DNA from: Cyanobacteriota bacterium | Lineage (GTDB): Bacteria > Acidobacteriota > Vicinamibacteria > Vicinamibacterales > UBA2999 | Length of the DNA stretch: 64,000 nt | Direction: 5' to 3' | Assembly (NCBI GenBank): GCA_019752015.1 | Contig: JAIEMQ010000011.1 | Span: 1-64,000 of the forward strand | Part shown: positions 152 through 46,119 of the stretch, in pieces | Position numbering within the stretch: position 1 is the first letter of the stretch | Layout: every line of letters starts with the position of its first letter | Program-made: the position numbers and the translations under genes | Notes under the pieces: model-generated | Told to the model about the DNA's origin: nothing | Databases searched by the model: none | The model's input: the letters and a program-made list of their open reading frames with translations, nothing else

Positions 152-613
152 ATGTCACGGAAGTCGATCGGCAACAAGAAGGGCTGCGCCCTGTGCGGCG
201 CCAAGGAAGTATCGGAGCCCCGCGGCGAAGAGCGCTACTGCCGCGAATGCTGGGACAAGAAGATTGCGGTCGAAGAAATCGTCGCGCGCGATTTCGCGTT
301 GAAGCGCTACATCCGCGCGCACAGCGCCGAAAAATACCTCGTCTACCATTCCGCGCAGAAGCGCCCGATCGGCCAGATCATCGTCGTCGACGACGGCTAC
401 GATCTGTTCCTGACGATGACGATCTATCCGAACTTCGCGTGGGATGAGCCGGCCTACAGTCTCGACGGCGATCCGGAGGGCCGCACGTTCGCCGAGCTGC
501 TCGTCGACGTCGTCGCCACCGAGGTGATCGAGCCGTGGGGCGGCGGCAAGTGGCACCTCGAAGTGTTCCGGTCGACGGCGGCAGAGCCCGAGGACTGGAA
601 CGGCGAGATGTAA
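152..613 (+). CDS. hypothetical protein with N-terminal zinc ribbon
   Basis: A 153-residue cytoplasmic protein of unknown function. Four cysteines in two CxxC pairs (C12/C15 and C30/C33) form a likely zinc ribbon. The rest is a mixed alpha/beta domain of about 110 residues with no signal peptide or membrane segment. The first in-frame ATG follows an AT-rich stretch with a possible -10 box, and no strong Shine-Dalgarno is visible. The gene stands alone. Directly after its stop codon comes an array of AAAGAAC heptamers that separates it from the next gene. I do not recognise the family, so no role is proposed. Confidence 0.6.
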   Translation: MSRKSIGNKKGCALCGAKEVSEPRGEERYCRECWDKKIAVEEIVARDFALKRYIRAHSAEKYLVYHSAQKRPIGQIIVVDDGYDLFLTMTIYPNFAWDEPAYSLDGDPEGRTFAELLVDVVATEVIEPWGGGKWHLEVFRSTAAEPEDWNGEM

Positions 614-697
614 AAGAACAAAGAACAAAGAACAAAGAACGAAGAATGAAGAACAAGGGCAATCCTTCGTTATTTGGTCTTTGTTCTTCGTTATTGC
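613..697. repeat. AAAGAAC heptamer array with inverted arm
   Basis: Six 7-nt units (four AAAGAAC, then GAAGAAT and GAAGAAC) run from 613 to 654, starting inside the stop codon of the preceding gene. A loosely inverted arm rich in TTTGTTCTTCGTTA follows at about 665-697, so the transcript could fold into a long AU-rich hairpin. The same core recurs at 26329-26442. Confidence 0.75.
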
Positions 698-4131: not shown

Positions 4132-4191
4132 ACCTGACTACCTGACTACCTGACTTACCTGATTACCTGATTACCTGATTGCCTGATTATA
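4132..4191. repeat. ACCTGATT octamer array
   Basis: About seven 8-nt units (ACCTGACT changing to ACCTGATT, one with an extra T) fill the divergent gap between the VWA gene (start 4130, minus) and the M24 peptidase (start 4242, plus). It touches the 5' side of the VWA start codon. Confidence 0.8.
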
Positions 4192-25297: not shown

Positions 25298-25959
25298 TTC
25301 CAGTCCCTCCGAAATGGCAAGTGGGGCCTTTATCAGAAGAACGCTGACGGGACCGGAGCTGAACGCCTGCTGATCGAGTCGGAACGGCTGCAGTTTCCCA
25401 TGGACTGGTTCCCAAAAGGCCAGTCGATTTTTTACGTCGTGGGAGGCCGGACCGAAACGGCCTTATGGCTGCTCCCATTGACCACCGATGGCAAGGGTAC
25501 CAGGCTGACCGACTCGAAGTTCCCCGAAAATTTTCCTCAAATCTCTCCGGACGGCAAATGGCTGGCGTACGCGTCCCAGGAAAGCGGCGCCGAGCAGATT
25601 TATGTCAGAGCGTTTCCTAACGGCAACGGGAAATGGCAGGTCTCAATGGGCGCAAGAGGAGGATTTCCACGCTGGCGCAGTGACGGGAAGGAGCTCTTCT
25701 ATGCCACAGATTCTTCACAAGGCAAACTCATGTCCCGTCACGGTGAACGGATCGGGATCCAGCTTCGTCGCCAGCGCACCTGTGGAGCTGTTCGAACCCG
25801 GCACTTATGGAGGCGCGCTGATAGCACATCAGAGATTATTTCGGTTATGCGGTCTCGCCCGATGGTCAGCGTTTTCTGTGGCCTCAGCCCGCTTCCGGCA
25901 CAAAGAGATCGTCAACTATTAACGTGGTGCTGAACTGGACATCCCTGCTCACGAAATAA
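25298..25959 (+). pseudogene. decayed C-terminus of a Ser/Thr kinase-associated WD40/TolB-like propeller
   Basis: From 25298 an open frame without start encodes propeller blades ('NGKWGLYQKNADGTGAERLL', 'ISPDGKWLAYASQESG', 'QIYVRAFPNGNGKWQVS', 'PRWRSDGKELFY'). Near 25735 the match moves to a second frame (VNGSGSSFVASAPVELFEPGTYGG), and near 25830 to a third (YAVSPDGQRFLWPQP, ending VVLNWTSLL at 25957). These are the closing motifs of acidobacterial kinase-propeller proteins. The kinase domain and N-terminus are absent and there are at least two frameshifts, so this is a remnant. Its GC content is visibly lower than that of the neighbours. Confidence 0.8.
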
Positions 25960-25970
25960 AGTTGACGTCG

Positions 25971-25976
25971 TACAAT
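25971..25976 (+). promoter_or_regulatory. candidate -10 box for the cupredoxin gene
   Basis: TACAAT lies 6 nt before the ATG at 25983, predicting transcription to begin at the start codon. No clear -35. Confidence 0.4.
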
Positions 25977-25982
25977 CAACCC

Positions 25983-26330
25983 ATGCGCGCGCTCTTCGTC
26001 CTCCTCGTCCTGGCGCCCGTCTTCGCCGTCGCGCAGGAGCCGGCGCAGAATCGACGCGAGTTCACCATCATCGCGAAGGACCACACCTTCACCCCAGACA
26101 AGCTCGATGTGACGCAGGATGACCTGGTGAAGATCACGCTGACGAGTGAAGACGTGCCGGCGAGTTTCGCGATCGATGCCTATCGAATCATCAAGCGCGT
26201 GGCGGGCAAGACGTCGGTGACCTTCGAGTTCCGCGCCGATCAGGCCGGGACGTTCCCCTTCTATTGCAATCTCACGACCGACGCCGCGTGCAAGGAGATG
26301 CGCGGCGTGCTCAACGTCCGATCGAAATAA
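25983..26330 (+). CDS. secreted cupredoxin-fold protein, copper ligands incomplete
   Basis: A 115-residue protein with a signal peptide (residues 1-18, ending AVAQ) and a cupredoxin domain of the COX2/NosZ C-terminal type ('FTIIAKDHTFTPDKLDVTQDDLVKITLTSEDV', 'AGTFPFYCNLTTDAACKEMRGVLNV'). Cys and Met sit where the copper ligands are expected, but the usual His before the first strand and the His of CxxxCGxxH are not seen, and the Cys-to-Met loop is rebuilt. It may bind metal differently or not at all. It could be a periplasmic electron carrier or structural relic. Confidence 0.75.
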   Translation: MRALFVLLVLAPVFAVAQEPAQNRREFTIIAKDHTFTPDKLDVTQDDLVKITLTSEDVPASFAIDAYRIIKRVAGKTSVTFEFRADQAGTFPFYCNLTTDAACKEMRGVLNVRSK

Positions 26331-26442
26331 CAAAGAACAAAAAACGAAGAACAAAAATTTCGTTCTTTGTTATTCGTTCTTTGTTATTCGTTCTTTGTTA
26401 TTCGTTCTTTGTTATTCGTTCTTTGTTATTCGTTCTTTGTTA
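26329..26442. repeat. TTCGTTCTTTGTTA 14-mer array (two heptamers) with inverted arm
   Basis: Six perfect head-to-tail copies of TTCGTTCTTTGTTA span 26359-26442. An inverted arm (TAACAAAGAAC and relatives) at 26328-26356 faces them. The array fills the gap between two convergent genes and supplies both stop codons (26328-26330, and TAA of the GDPD gene at 26440-26442). The reverse-strand core AAAGAAC equals that at 613-654. Any RNA from either side would form a long AU-rich stem. Confidence 0.95.
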
Positions 26443-27354
26443 TTTCCTTGGAAACTTGTCGGGGTTGTCGGTGAAGACCGCGTCGACACCGAGTCGATAA
26501 AGAAAGTGCGCCATCTCCTCGTTGACGTTCCTGAACCCTGATTTCAAGACGTCTGATTCGCGGAACGTGTAGGGCGTGACGGTCATGCCGTCGGCGTGCG
26601 CCCATTTCACGAAGTCGGGGTTCTCGAACACGATGCGCTTGGTCGGGCCGAAGCCCTGCACGATGCCCTTCCAGCCGCGCACTTCTTCCTGCGTCTTCGG
26701 GCGGTTCTCGTACTCGACCAGCCACACGACCGGCACGCCGATCTTCATCTTGGCGAGGTTTCTCGCCGTCTCTTTCCCGAACGTCTGCAGGATGACCGGC
26801 GTCTTCGGATCCGCCTTCGGACCGCGCAGGCCGTTCTTGTCGAGCGCGGCGGCGACCATGTCCTCGAAGTTCACATTGCGGCCCGCGTAAATCTCCGGCG
26901 TCTTGAGCTCTGGGAAGATGCCGGCCTTGCCGCGGATCAGCGCGATCGCCTCGTCGAACGTCGGCACTTTCTCGCCGGAGAATTTCTTGTCGAACCACGA
27001 TCCGGCATCGAGCCGCTTGATCTCGGCAAGAGTGAAGTCGTTGGCAAGCCACGCCTTGCGCGTCTTGCCTTCAATGGTCTGCGTGCTGACGCGATCGGGA
27101 AACAGCTCCTCGACGTTGGTGGTGCGCTCGAGGCTGGCGTCGTGCAGGCAGATCAGGATGCCGTCCCTGGTGACGGCGAGATCCTGCTCCACGTAGTCGG
27201 CGCCCATTTCGATCGCCAGCTTGTAGGCCGCCAGCGTGTGCTCGGGCGCATAGGCCGACGCGCCGCGGTGCGCAACGACGGTCTTCCTGGTGTATTGGGC
27301 CGAGCCGGTCACGGTGGCCAACAGGATAACGGCAATCGCGAATTCAAGCCGCAT
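26440..27354 (-). CDS. secreted glycerophosphodiester phosphodiesterase
   Basis: A 304-residue GDPD-family protein with a signal peptide (about residues 1-19). The signature VAHRGASAYAPEHTLAAYKLAIEMGADYVEQDL (HRG...E.T...A...GAD..E.D) and catalytic second His in 'LHDASLERTTN' are intact. It hydrolyses glycerophosphodiesters to glycerol-3-phosphate and an alcohol, probably in the periplasm. I prefer the ATG at 27354 (GAGGG 5 nt upstream, good signal peptide) to one six codons further up. It overlaps the M48 protease gene by 11 nt. Its stop codon lies in the 14-mer array. Confidence 0.88.
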   Translation of the reverse strand: MRLEFAIAVILLATVTGSAQYTRKTVVAHRGASAYAPEHTLAAYKLAIEMGADYVEQDLAVTRDGILICLHDASLERTTNVEELFPDRVSTQTIEGKTRKAWLANDFTLAEIKRLDAGSWFDKKFSGEKVPTFDEAIALIRGKAGIFPELKTPEIYAGRNVNFEDMVAAALDKNGLRGPKADPKTPVILQTFGKETARNLAKMKIGVPVVWLVEYENRPKTQEEVRGWKGIVQGFGPTKRIVFENPDFVKWAHADGMTVTPYTFRESDVLKSGFRNVNEEMAHFLYRLGVDAVFTDNPDKFPRK

Positions 27355-28480
27355 GGGAACCCTCTCGCGCAAACGCGCGCGCCGCGTCGATTCGCTCGCG
27401 AATCGGCGGGTGCGAATAAAACAGCCAGCGAACGATCGGTGAAGGATACTCCTCCGCGAGATTCTGCTGCGAGAGCCGTTTCATGGCGGTCACGAACGCG
27501 TCAACATTCCGTGTCGTGGTCAGCGCATAACGGTCCGCGGCCCGCTCCTGGGCGCGCGACATGGCATTCGCCAGCGGCAGCGCCAGGAACGACCAGACGC
27601 CGCCGCACAGCAGCAGCAGGGGCAGGCCGGCCGGATCGGGAACGCCGCGGAGCTCGAGCGGTCCGGCCAGCGCGCGCAGGACCAGGTCCGCGACAAAAAA
27701 CCCGCCCAGCAGGATCACACTCTGCACCGCGATGCCGCGCCATAAATCGCGATGCACATGATGCGCGAGCTCGTGCGCGAGGATCACTTCGATCTCGTCT
27801 TCCGAATAATCGGCGAGCAACGTATCCGACAGCAGGATGCGGCGCGTCCGCCCCATGCCGGCCAGTGCTGCATTGGCTTTCCTGGTATGCCCGCTCAACA
27901 CCCACTCGAACACGCCGACCACGTCGGTGCGCGCGCGAGTGGCGAGCGCCATCAGCCGATCGACCAGCGCGGGACGATCGAGCGGCTTGAACTTGTAGAA
28001 GATCGGCAACAGCAGCACCGGCGCGATCCGGGCCAGGCCGATCGTCGCGAGCGCAAAGGTGGCTGCTGAGATAAACCACCAGCTGCCGGGCGACTCGCGG
28101 AGCGCGAGATAAATCACCGACGTGCCCGCGACCGCGAGCACGACGCCAAGCGCGATGCCCTTGGCTTGATCGGCAAGCCAGTGCGCGGTGGTTTGCGTCG
28201 AGAGTCCGTAGCGATGTTCGAGCAGATGTCCCTGATAAAACGCGAACGGGAATTCGATGATCTGCAGGATGACCATCAGCATGACGGTGAACAGCACCAC
28301 CGTCACGGATTCTTCGAGACCGCCGGGCGCCCACTGCGCGATCGCCGCCGCGAGTTCGCGCAGCTTGTGCGCGCCGCCGAGCACCAGCAACCCCAACAGC
28401 ACGACGCCGGCAGCAGCCGTCCCCAGCAGGTCGGCGCGCCGGCGCAAGCGGTGGTAGCGAGTGGCCTTGTCTTCGTTCAA
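27344..28480 (-). CDS. M48 family zinc metalloprotease (Ste24/CAAX-protease type)
   Basis: A 378-residue integral membrane protease with about six transmembrane helices, the zinc motif HELAHH (HExxH) and a downstream Glu ligand in ERAADRYAL. The size and topology are those of Ste24-type peptidases rather than HtpX. It likely degrades or processes membrane proteins from the cytoplasmic face. It starts at ATG 28480 (gap of 22 nt after the ExeA gene) and its end overlaps the GDPD gene, so the three may be one operon. Confidence 0.88.
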   Translation of the reverse strand: MNEDKATRYHRLRRRADLLGTAAAGVVLLGLLVLGGAHKLRELAAAIAQWAPGGLEESVTVVLFTVMLMVILQIIEFPFAFYQGHLLEHRYGLSTQTTAHWLADQAKGIALGVVLAVAGTSVIYLALRESPGSWWFISAATFALATIGLARIAPVLLLPIFYKFKPLDRPALVDRLMALATRARTDVVGVFEWVLSGHTRKANAALAGMGRTRRILLSDTLLADYSEDEIEVILAHELAHHVHRDLWRGIAVQSVILLGGFFVADLVLRALAGPLELRGVPDPAGLPLLLLCGGVWSFLALPLANAMSRAQERAADRYALTTTRNVDAFVTAMKRLSQQNLAEEYPSPIVRWLFYSHPPIRERIDAARAFAREGSHAA

Positions 28481-42023: not shown

Positions 42024-43592
42024 TATGTCTCCCAGATGAATCTTAAATTTTACGTCATCTCGCGACGGAAAGTCCGCGCGCGCGTGGGAGCCGCGGCTTT
42101 CCTCGCGGCGCAGCGCGGCGCGGGCCATCAAGCGGCCCACCGTGACGAGCGCGGCAATCCGGCTGCGATCGTTGCCGAGGGCCGCATACCAGTCGTCAAG
42201 GGCTTCAACCGCCGTCTGCAGCAGCGCTGCCTCTCGCCACAGGCCGACGGAATTCCACATCAACCCCCGCACGTCCGCTTCCCGTAAGCGGGTGCCTGGC
42301 ACCCGATGACGGTCCAACCGCCGTCGGGTGCCTGGCACCGTCTGACGGTCCGACCGCCGTCGGGTGCCTGGCACCGTCTGACGGTTGTCAAGAATTGAGA
42401 AGGGGGTGGAGATTTCGCTGGGGAGAAGCATGGCTTGTGCCGCGCGGGCGCCGAAGACGAGGCCCTCGAGCAGCGAGTTGCTGGCGAGGCGATTGGCGCC
42501 GTGGACGCCGGTGCAGGCCACTTCTCCTGCGGCGTAGAGGCCCGGCACGGTCGTGCGGCCCCACAGATCGGTCTCCACGCCGCCCATCACGTAATGCGCC
42601 GCGGGGCCGACAGGCATCCGATCGGTGCCGAGGTCGAGTCCCACCGATTTGCAGGCCGCCGCGATCGTCGGAAATCGCGCACGCGTCCATTCGGGATCGT
42701 GCTTCTCCATGGAAAGGTAGACCGCGCCGCCGGTGCGATGCTGCTCGCGGGCGATCGCACGCGAGACCAGATCGCGCGAGGCCAGCTCGCCCGCCGGCTC
42801 GTATCGCGTCATGAATCGCTCACCGGCTTCGTTCAGCAGCTCGGCGCCCTCGCCTCGCAGCGCTTCGGACAACAGGAAGCGAGGCGCACCCGGCACATCG
42901 AGCGCAGTCGGATGGAATTGGACGAACTCGAGGTCCGCGACTCGGGCGCCCGCAAACCAGCCAAGCATCACGCCGTCGCCGGTCGCGATCGACGGATTGG
43001 TCGTCTCGCGAAACACCTGGCCCGCGCCGCCGGTGGCCAGCAGCACCGCGGCGGCGTGCACTTCGTGAACGCCCGATTCGTTCTGGTAACGGGCGCCGAT
43101 GCAGCGGCCGCCGTCGACGATCAACTCGTGCACGCGGGCGTTGCGCTCGACGCGCACGCGCGATTGTTCGGCGACGCGCTCCCACAGCGCGCGGCCGATC
43201 TCGCGGCCCGTCGCATCAGCGGCGTGCAGCACGCGTCGCCGGCCGTGCGCGCCTTCGCGACCGAGCGACAGGGCGCCGCTGCGATCGCGATCGAATCGCG
43301 CGCCCCATTCGATCAGCTCGTTGACGTAGCGAACGCCGTCGTTGACGAGCACCTGCACGGCCGCGTCGACACAGAGCCCGTCGCCGGCGTTGATCGTGTC
43401 GATCGCGTGATCGCGCGGATTGTCTTCAGGCCCGACCGCGGCGGCAATGCCGCCCTGCGCGTAGCCGGTGTTGCTCTCGGTGGGATCCGCTTTGGTCAGC
43501 ACCAGCACATCGCCCGCGAGCGCAAGATCGGCGGCGGCGCGAAGGCCGGCAATGCCGCTGCCGATGATCAGGAAGTCCGTTCGACGCGGCAC
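42012..43592 (-). CDS. nadB: L-aspartate oxidase
   Basis: A 526-residue FAD enzyme of the NadB/succinate dehydrogenase family. FAD-binding GSGIAGLRAA (about 12-21), the STGYAQGGIAAAV-type motif, the active-site 'HPTALD' and 'EALRGEGAELLNEAGERFM' blocks and the C-terminal helical domain are present. It oxidises aspartate to iminoaspartate for NAD synthesis; nadA and nadC are not in the window. Residues about 402-434 hold TVPGTRRRSDRQ-type tandem repeats encoded by a 36-nt repeat, placed before the helical domain. Start is GTG at 43592. Divergent from aroB. Confidence 0.92.
   Translation of the reverse strand: MPRRTDFLIIGSGIAGLRAAADLALAGDVLVLTKADPTESNTGYAQGGIAAAVGPEDNPRDHAIDTINAGDGLCVDAAVQVLVNDGVRYVNELIEWGARFDRDRSGALSLGREGAHGRRRVLHAADATGREIGRALWERVAEQSRVRVERNARVHELIVDGGRCIGARYQNESGVHEVHAAAVLLATGGAGQVFRETTNPSIATGDGVMLGWFAGARVADLEFVQFHPTALDVPGAPRFLLSEALRGEGAELLNEAGERFMTRYEPAGELASRDLVSRAIAREQHRTGGAVYLSMEKHDPEWTRARFPTIAAACKSVGLDLGTDRMPVGPAAHYVMGGVETDLWGRTTVPGLYAAGEVACTGVHGANRLASNSLLEGLVFGARAAQAMLLPSEISTPFSILDNRQTVPGTRRRSDRQTVPGTRRRLDRHRVPGTRLREADVRGLMWNSVGLWREAALLQTAVEALDDWYAALGNDRSRIAALVTVGRLMARAALRREESRGSHARADFPSRDDVKFKIHLGDIRDF
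42289..42386. repeat. 36-nt tandem repeat inside nadB
   Basis: Two full 36-nt copies (42289-42324, 42325-42360) and a partial third (to 42386) each carry the palindrome GGTGCCTGGCACC. Because 36 is a multiple of three the frame is kept, adding about 33 residues. The GGTGCCTG half is the reverse complement of the CAGGCACC octamer used at 8117 and 44708. Confidence 0.9.
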
Positions 43593-43627: not shown

Positions 43628-44707
43628 GTGGATCGCATAACGGTCACCGCGGCCGCGGGTCCGTACTCCGTGCTGATCGGGGCCGGCGCGATCGATGCGC
43701 TGGGCGCCGAGATGGACAAGGCGAAGCTGGGCAAGCGCCGCCTCCTGATCTCGAGCGAGCGCGTGTGGGACTTTCACGGACCGCTGTTCCGTAAAGCCGG
43801 CGCCGAGCGCACGCCGATCCTGATCGAAGACGGTGAGCGCTACAAGAACCTCAACACCGTCGCACGCCTGCTCGATGCGCTGGTCAAGGCCAACGCCGAT
43901 CGATCGACCGTGATCATCGCGGTCGGCGGCGGCGTGATCGGCGACATGGTTGGATTCTCAGCCGCCACGTACCTGCGCGGATTGCCAATCGTGCACGTGC
44001 CGACGACGCTCCTCGCCCAGGTCGACAGCGCCATCGGCGGCAAGACCGGCGTCAATCATCCGCTCGGCAAGAACCTGATCGGCTCATTTCACGCGCCGAG
44101 CCTCGTCGTCGCCGACCCGATCGTGCTCCAAACGCTGCCACGCCGCGAATTCCGCGCCGGCTTGTACGAAGTGATCAAGTACGGCGTGATATCCGATCCG
44201 ACGCTGCTCGATCGCATGCGCGATTCGATCACCGCGATCTTCAATCGCGACGGCGATGCGATCGCGCCGCTCGTGACCGCGTCGTGCCGCATCAAGGCGC
44301 AAGTCGTATCCGCGGACGAGCGCGAATCGGGGCTGCGGCGTATCCTCAATTTCGGTCATACCGCCGGCCACGCGCTCGAGGCGGTGACCAAGTACAAGCA
44401 GTTCCGCCACGGCGAGGCGATCGGCTACGGCATGCTGGCGGCGCTGGCGATCGGCGTGGCGCGCGGCATCACGCCGACGTCGCTCTACGAAGAAGTGGAA
44501 TCGCTGATCACGCAGCTGGGGCCGCTGCCGCCCGTCGGCGACATCTCCGCCAAGGACGTCTTCGCGGCGATCGGGCGCGACAAGAAGGTGGTCGCCGGCA
44601 CGCTGCATTTCATTGCGGCGTCGGATCGCGGCAAGACCGTGGAATTGACCGATGTGACCGAAAAGGAAATCAAGGCCGCGTTAAAGAAAATCGGCCTTCG
44701 CGCTTAG
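43628..44707 (+). CDS. aroB: 3-dehydroquinate synthase
   Basis: A 359-residue AroB. NAD-binding and catalytic motifs are in order: 'GERYKNLNTVARLLDALVKANADRSTVIIAVGGGVIGDMVGFSAATYLRGLP', 'TTLLAQVDSAIGGKTGVNHPLGKN', zinc ligands Glu/His/His ('LYEVIKYG', 'ILNFGHTAGHA', 'HGEAIGYGM'). It makes the first ring compound of the shikimate pathway. I prefer GTG 43628, which gives the normal family N-terminus (DRITVTAAAGPYSVLIG), over TTG 43610, which lies in the palindrome. Confidence 0.95.
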   Translation: MDRITVTAAAGPYSVLIGAGAIDALGAEMDKAKLGKRRLLISSERVWDFHGPLFRKAGAERTPILIEDGERYKNLNTVARLLDALVKANADRSTVIIAVGGGVIGDMVGFSAATYLRGLPIVHVPTTLLAQVDSAIGGKTGVNHPLGKNLIGSFHAPSLVVADPIVLQTLPRREFRAGLYEVIKYGVISDPTLLDRMRDSITAIFNRDGDAIAPLVTASCRIKAQVVSADERESGLRRILNFGHTAGHALEAVTKYKQFRHGEAIGYGMLAALAIGVARGITPTSLYEEVESLITQLGPLPPVGDISAKDVFAAIGRDKKVVAGTLHFIAASDRGKTVELTDVTEKEIKAALKKIGLRA

Positions 44708-44752
44708 CACCTCAGGCACCTCAGGCACCCAGGCACCCAGGCACCCAGGCAC
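44708..44752. repeat. CAGGCACC octamer array
   Basis: Five to six 8-nt units (two TCAGGCACC-like then three CAGGCACC) fill the convergent gap between aroB and the NtrC gene, starting directly after the aroB stop. The unit is the same as in the coding array at 8117-8172, 36 kb away. Confidence 0.9.

Positions 44753-46119
<1,367 letters not shown>

Follow-up and report, generated by a model that had tools for sequence, protein, structure and literature searches.

STRR sequences of cyanobacteria are short tandem heptamers that are scattered through the genome. Heptamers of Xanthomonas (GGGAATC) and Nostoc (GGGGA(T/C)T) were described, in the excerpted text of one report (PMC4692102), as dispersed and intergenic, located near or over stop codons, often present as two convergent (inverted) arrays and under-represented between divergent genes. 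The same excerpts call them G-rich and quadruplex-forming, leave their function unresolved, and state that 83% of the sites of one Xanthomonas species lie in the same context in the other. The TAACTGA heptamers of Beggiatoaceae, according to excerpts of a second report (PMC4679880), are lineage-specific and intergenic, carry stop codons, may overlap gene ends and are patchy across phyla. REP and REPIN sequences, in the extracts of two further papers (PMC3733652; PMC3116915), are short inverted pairs that lie downstream of coding regions, where the neighboring genes are convergent or unidirectional; the extracts of the former add that GTAG REPs are a frequent source of the TAG stop in flanking ORFs. 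For the origin of bacterial heptamer repeats, the published guess is polymerase slippage.

Here we examine an A-rich heptamer palindrome between two convergent genes in a window of 64,000 nucleotides, the whole stretch of DNA that was analyzed. We favor, with a probability of roughly 0.55, the reading of the array as one member of a REPIN-like repeat family, dispersed and fast-changing, with a T-rich arm that has grown by 14-nt slippage. The locus looks like a REP-like genomic repeat and not a one-off terminator, because the palindrome is scattered and sister species often have other repeats in its place.

Anatomy and folding of the palindrome

The window's own genome (G000; 5.9 Mb, 82 contigs) was compared with congeners G002 to G008. 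Gene ends are calls of our own codon-usage gene finder, made without annotation. The features are collected in Table 1.

Table 1. Features of the convergent junction and the second element of the family in the window.
Feature	Position	Strand	Description and basis
Cupredoxin-like gene	25983-26330	+	Pfam PF13473, E 4e-14; gene finder; sequence
A-rich arm	26325-26357	+	Heptamers AAATAAC, AAAGAAC, AAAAAAC and GAAGAAC, then AAAAA; TRF, period 14 at 26325-26357; census
T-rich arm	26359-26444	-	6.1 identical copies of TTCGTTCTTTGTTA; TRF; repeat search
Whole palindromic element	26324-26446		Lies between, and over, both stops; inverted repeats; folds
GDPD-family gene	26440-27372	-	Pfam PF03009, E 4.5e-48; ORF; gene finder
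Second palindromic element of the family	613-696		At the stop of gene 152-613; the next gene, at 726, follows after 29 nt

The cupredoxin-like ORF has the ATG start picked by the gene finder and also opens at TTG 25962, and the GDPD gene starts at TTG 27372 or, according to the gene finder, at 27354. By sequence, the cupredoxin stop (TAA 26328-26330) is inside the first heptamer of the A-rich arm. The GDPD stop (TTA 26440-26442 on the plus strand) is formed by the final three bases of the sixth 14-mer. The palindrome spans stop to stop, and the 14-mers contain the GDPD stop only. An earlier, sequence-only reading of this DNA had the 14-mers supply the stop codons of both genes, which is correct for the palindrome as a whole; it also began the array at 26329, and although the array is real, that boundary cuts the cupredoxin stop codon. 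Nor need the GDPD stop stem from the array. All eight species compared have a lysine codon followed by a stop at this position; the terminal AAATAA is found in G000, G002, G005, G006 and G008, and in the last three the GDPD gene ends in this way in the absence of an AAAGAAC-type heptamer array.

The six perfect 14-mers of the sequence-only reading were recovered by TRF (100% matches, score 172), with six complete copies of TTCGTTCTTTGTTA at 26359-26442 and a seventh begun. Each 14-mer consists of two alternating heptamers; on the minus strand the arm reads AAATAAC AAAGAAC GAATAAC and so on. The inverted A-rich arm was likewise found: 26324-26355 and 26415-26446 are 88% complementary over 32 nt, and 26326-26356 and 26358-26388 are 87% complementary over 31 nt. 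The recent expansion proposed from the perfect identity is plausible, given that no difference separates the six 14-mers whereas units vary, as judged by eye, in most other arms. With no more than one mismatch allowed, GAACAAAGAAC had 12 matches in the window compared to 0.43 expected in shuffles (maximum 3), so chance is excluded for these repeats. The layout at 613-697, where the same core had been noticed, is like that of the element at 26324-26446, with inverted arms at 614-647 and 662-695 (85%), but these are not two sites alone, as described below.

Both RNA strands of the element, folded over 171 nt, were more stable than shuffled sequences (z -3.0 and -4.3), in agreement with the suggestion that transcripts of either direction form a stem, and the core hairpin gave -26.2 kcal/mol (z -6.7). 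Folding was computed for four inverted-pair elements and supports a trait of REP/REPIN sequences, namely folding inverted pairs. The polarity, with the A-rich arm first and the U-rich arm last in either direction, suits a terminator, and the bidirectional terminator put forward earlier is possible at this convergent pair, with its hairpins on both strands. A scan of 25800-27500 for canonical terminators (stem with at least three GC pairs, loop of 3-8) called two sites, neither at the array, with 1.9 expected by chance. The stem of the array is AU-rich and is not the G+C-containing stem followed by a T-run of an intrinsic terminator. Six permutation tests detected no within-site covariation of the arms (p 0.86 and 0.93 in two, 0.91-0.96 in the other four), and the arms of a site paired slightly worse with each other than with arms swapped between sites. 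Because own arms pair no better than those of other sites, base pairing is not maintained site by site, and arm covariation was ruled out as proof of a selected hairpin. Termination or 3'-end protection is a possible side effect of the element and not an established or general function.

Placement and architecture of the AAAGAAC family

With up to two mismatches, a two-heptamer pattern had 281 matches in G000 and its reversed control had 10. At least 41 sites of the AAAGAAC-heptamer family were identified in the 627,860 bases analyzed. This list is a minimum, drawn from the best 100 of the 281 pattern matches, a profile search (best 150 candidates), contig C2 and the window, and it leaves out two weak pattern matches (C1:66853 and C9:40179). 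The unbiased sample consists of the window together with contig C2 (333,646 bases); the remaining G000 stretches entered the analysis on account of a match within them. The sites comprise 25 inverted pairs, nine A-rich-only arrays and seven T-rich-only arrays. Read along the plus strand, all 25 palindromes open with the A-rich arm, and the reverse order was seen at none of the 41 sites. Other perfect or near-perfect arrays of the family are at C46:13125, C18:82666 and C2:4063.

Sites of the family are placed at gene 3' ends. This was the case for 38 of the 41, nine between convergent genes and 29 in tandem pairs; two were flanked by gene starts and lay more than 40 nt from any 3' end, and one was inside a predicted ORF. 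Divergent gaps, which make up 35% of the intergenic bases of the unbiased sample, held 2 of the 40 intergenic sites (p 6e-6). In tandem pairs, the A-rich strand was the sense strand in 10 of 13 direct arrays, and 16 palindromes sit in such pairs with one 3' end each. The next start codon is no more than 30 nt from 9 of these 16, where strong termination would cut the operon or require a new promoter. Phase variation and start-site regulation were set aside because 38 of the 41 sites are at 3' ends. A quadruplex role was set aside as well; the arms have no G-runs.

The stop codons are in phase with the heptamers. Among the 37 stops at an offset of 0 or less relative to the array, 28 were at -6, -13, -20 or -27, and these share one heptamer phase, bases 4-6 of the unit (AAA-TAA-C), the codon being TAA in 27 and TGA in one. 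Arm lengths were counted as whole heptamers (an earlier reading of 31 nt moved in steps of seven with the pattern). Four was the commonest number in both G000 and G002: four full heptamers were counted in 16/25 A-rich and 9/25 T-rich arms of G000 and in 12/13 A-rich and 6/13 T-rich arms of G002. The T-rich arms are more variable in length than the A-rich arms. At the G002 loci examined, 12 of 19 clusters were inverted pairs, and a double element is present there (locus L179). The heptamer set of G002 differs from that of G000, and its third unit has T as the fifth base (SAATTAC or SAAGTAC type) in 8/13 A-rich arms and in 6 of the 9 T-rich arms that are long enough. Unit-by-unit identity in G000 is modest; in arms without a stop, units 1 and 2 differ at p 0.045. 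The four-heptamer arms and the unit order of G002 point to copies of a defined inverted element of about 70 nt and not to independent slippage at each place.

The same junctions in related genomes

The GDPD/cupredoxin pair is kept in all seven congeners, G002 to G008 (G001 had a weak match only), and the sequence between the two stops differs among them. A different heptamer palindrome (-36.7 kcal/mol) was found in G002, a unique GC-rich hairpin of about 20 bp (-36.1 kcal/mol) in G005, and a CACGAAG-type 9-mer array with an inverted arm in G006. The G004 junction is an 11-nt spacer with GAAGTGA-like units, and the stops of G003, G007 and G008 are separated by 0-4 nt. G003 also carries two tandem GDPD genes (L072/L078), 77% and 61% identical to the protein of the window. 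The genus is thus a natural experiment in which one junction holds a heptamer palindrome, a different one, a 9-mer array, a hairpin, a short spacer or almost nothing. Because this junction varies by species, its gain and loss, and any consequence for mRNA ends, can be tested directly, and the variety across the genus warns against taking a single array as a purpose-built terminator.

Other slots were compared in the same way. At C18:82666, all five species compared have an inverted repeat, each of a different sequence, between the stop and a conserved leader: heptamer palindromes of two kinds in G000 and G007, a 16-bp repeat in G004, and GC hairpins in G003 and G005. The leader itself, a conserved non-coding sequence around GACCACG-TTCGCTCGCTGCAGGCCTG (about 15000-15170 of L153, equal to C18:82500-82670 of G000), is present in all five species and could be a structured RNA. 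Empty slots were found in relatives at C27:11432 and C27:17082 (G003), C2:153152 (G008) and C7:65870 (G002). The C18:71546 slot is empty in G003 and, by eye, in G004, and holds a GTAGCCA array in G005. Turnover is not complete, because the C47:9368 and C46:13125 slots are also filled in G002 by related repeats, a palindrome and a short direct array, respectively. The direct array at C18:83908 lies in a conserved cluster and is unlikely to be a terminator, since three relatives have a gap of 3 nt there.

Short-period arrays of other sequences also occur in these genomes. Six congeneric genomes, each sampled in part, gave 91 intergenic arrays with periods of 4-14, of which 80 had a unit of 7-9 (86 if period 14 is counted as 2x7). 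The excess of periods 7-9 is intergenic; inside called G000 genes, periods 7 and 8 accounted for 9 of 19 arrays. Convergent junctions of C2 and the window held AAAGAAC, CACGAAGGA, GCAGACAG, AACAGATC, GCACCCAG and CTTCTGC arrays. Two of these lie between convergent stops of the window, 8-mer arrays of GCAGACAG at 1187-1234 and of GCACCCAG at 44707-44753, and the junction of the latter holds a GC hairpin in G003, other short repeats in G004 and a 1-nt gap in G005. Other families also reach beyond 3' ends, with arrays in 5 of 40 divergent junctions of G000. At 4132-4189 of the window, an 8-mer array of ACCTGATT occupies a divergent gap, and the orthologous gap of G004 holds a different 8-mer array, CTGGCCTG. 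A 36-bp tandem repeat at 42289-42385 (2.7 copies, 93% matches) appeared by eye to be unrelated to the heptamers.

A family-wide search (best 150 candidates per genome) gave matches in 8 of 43 genomes. Six of these are among the nine genomes of the window's genus, with none in G003, G004 or G005, and two are of another genus (one match in G034 and 22 in G063, where the four stretches viewed were direct arrays). AAAGAAC arrays were rejected as a clade marker; the heptamer occurs in many phyla among the matches listed. At 111 listed loci elsewhere (120 clusters, length-based gene calls), two clusters were inverted with the A-rich arm first and two had the opposite order, and the contrast of 2/120 with 25/41 is approximate, the pattern used for the collection being stricter than that used for G000. 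A Roseiflexaceae MAG (L222, L229 and others) carried mosaics of the related heptamers GAACAAA, GAACAGA and GGTTCTG at several places and may be a rich system in which to study heptamer spread.

Origin of the repeat and comparison with known systems

In the REPIN-like reading, the basic element is a short loop between inverted arms, each with about four AAAGAAC-type heptamers. Copies lie at gene 3' ends, and the stop codon there is often part of the outer heptamer, AAATAAC. The copy at 26324-26446 fills the gap between the convergent genes. This anatomy, the family, its position, the arm order, the stop phase and the differences among species are observed; the copies would have spread as whole elements, and the T-rich arm at this junction would have been lengthened later by slippage of the 14-nt double heptamer. 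A transcript of either gene would run through the A-rich arm and then the U-rich arm and can form a long AU-rich hairpin, which may contribute to ending or protecting the two mRNAs. An insertion with target duplication was not observed. What counts against the spread of whole elements is that 16 of the 41 sites lack an inverted arm; direct arrays of this kind could arise by slippage alone. A plain simple-sequence repeat, formed by slippage wherever the sequence is free, with 3' ends the freest places and the inverted layout a matter of two independent arrays, is a doubtful explanation of the whole family. It would fit the narrow range of unit lengths, the arrays of other families in divergent gaps, the array that occupies the 3-nt gap of relatives at C18:83908 and the lack of covariation between own arms, and slippage is the published proposal for the heptamer excess (Mrazek 2007, as given in the excerpts of PMC4679880). 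However, slippage does not easily explain why one heptamer is found at 41 sites and a different one in a sister species, why 16 palindromes sit in tandem pairs with a single 3' end, why the order of the arms is fixed, or why an arm has four heptamers.

Selection for a bidirectional intrinsic terminator, in which the palindrome is kept because both convergent transcripts end through its hairpin and U-rich arm, is unlikely. Hairpins on both strands with the favorable arm order, the near absence of the family between divergent genes, and GC hairpins in the same slot of relatives (C18:82666 in G003 and G005, the GDPD slot in G005) are what such selection might produce, yet no canonical terminator was called at the array, arms swapped between sites pair at least as well as own arms, G003, G007 and G008 manage with their minimal junctions, and over half of the tandem-pair palindromes are close to the next start. 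That the palindrome is a true REPIN mobilized by a Y1 (RAYT-like) transposase of the genome is very improbable, despite the inverted pairs, the 3' ends, the stop codons within the end of the element and 13 Y1_Tnp (PF01797) matches in G000. By reading, the GTAG or CGTC tetranucleotide is absent from both arms (26325-26357 and 26359-26444) and from the species arm consensuses, and the stretches around all 13 PF01797 matches contained no palindromic copy. In two of them an A-rich direct array lay at a distance of 2.6-2.8 kb, about as expected by chance; one of these arrays is at C13:90548-90578, 2.8 kb from the match at C13:93383-93697. With no link found in the stretches around the 13 matches, a REP transposase is not favored as the mover. 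The REPIN-like reading also has a more specific form, which we offer tentatively and consider rather unlikely. It holds that the family is a separate class of small palindromic repeat, with four phase-locked heptamers per arm and species variants, whose whole elements would spread to stops with neither a linked transposase nor a REP-type tag and would then grow by 14-nt slippage. Template switching at the terminal AAATAA of some genes is one example of how they might spread. If true, this class would be the missing link that joins tandem heptamer repeats to REP palindromes.

Our search of the open-licence literature found no report of A-rich heptamer palindromes of this kind. The likeness to cyanobacterial STRR sequences is by description only. 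Tandem 7-base units above chance place the family with heptameric intergenic simple-sequence repeats. So far as the excerpts of PMC4692102 describe them, the heptamers of Xanthomonas and Nostoc share with it the placement at stop codons, the convergent inverted pairs and the scarcity in divergent gaps, but the AAAGAAC family is A-rich, has no G-runs and has arms mostly of four heptamers. It also changes much among congeners, unlike the Xanthomonas sites of those excerpts, although the congeners may be more distant from one another. The TAACTGA heptamers of Beggiatoaceae are, in the excerpts of PMC4679880, mostly direct and upstream of starts, whereas the AAAGAAC family is often inverted and downstream of stops. 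Dispersed inverted pairs (25/41) and a position downstream of genes (38/41) are REP/REPIN traits, and, going by the extracts on REPs, both kinds of repeat lie at 3' ends and supply stop codons. In contrast to REP/REPIN sequences, the AAAGAAC arms carry no GTAG/CGTC tag or detected transposase link, are periodic at 7 nt and are prone to array growth. In the AAAGAAC family, heptamer units come together with a REPIN-like inverted element that is free of REP tags and changes between congeners.
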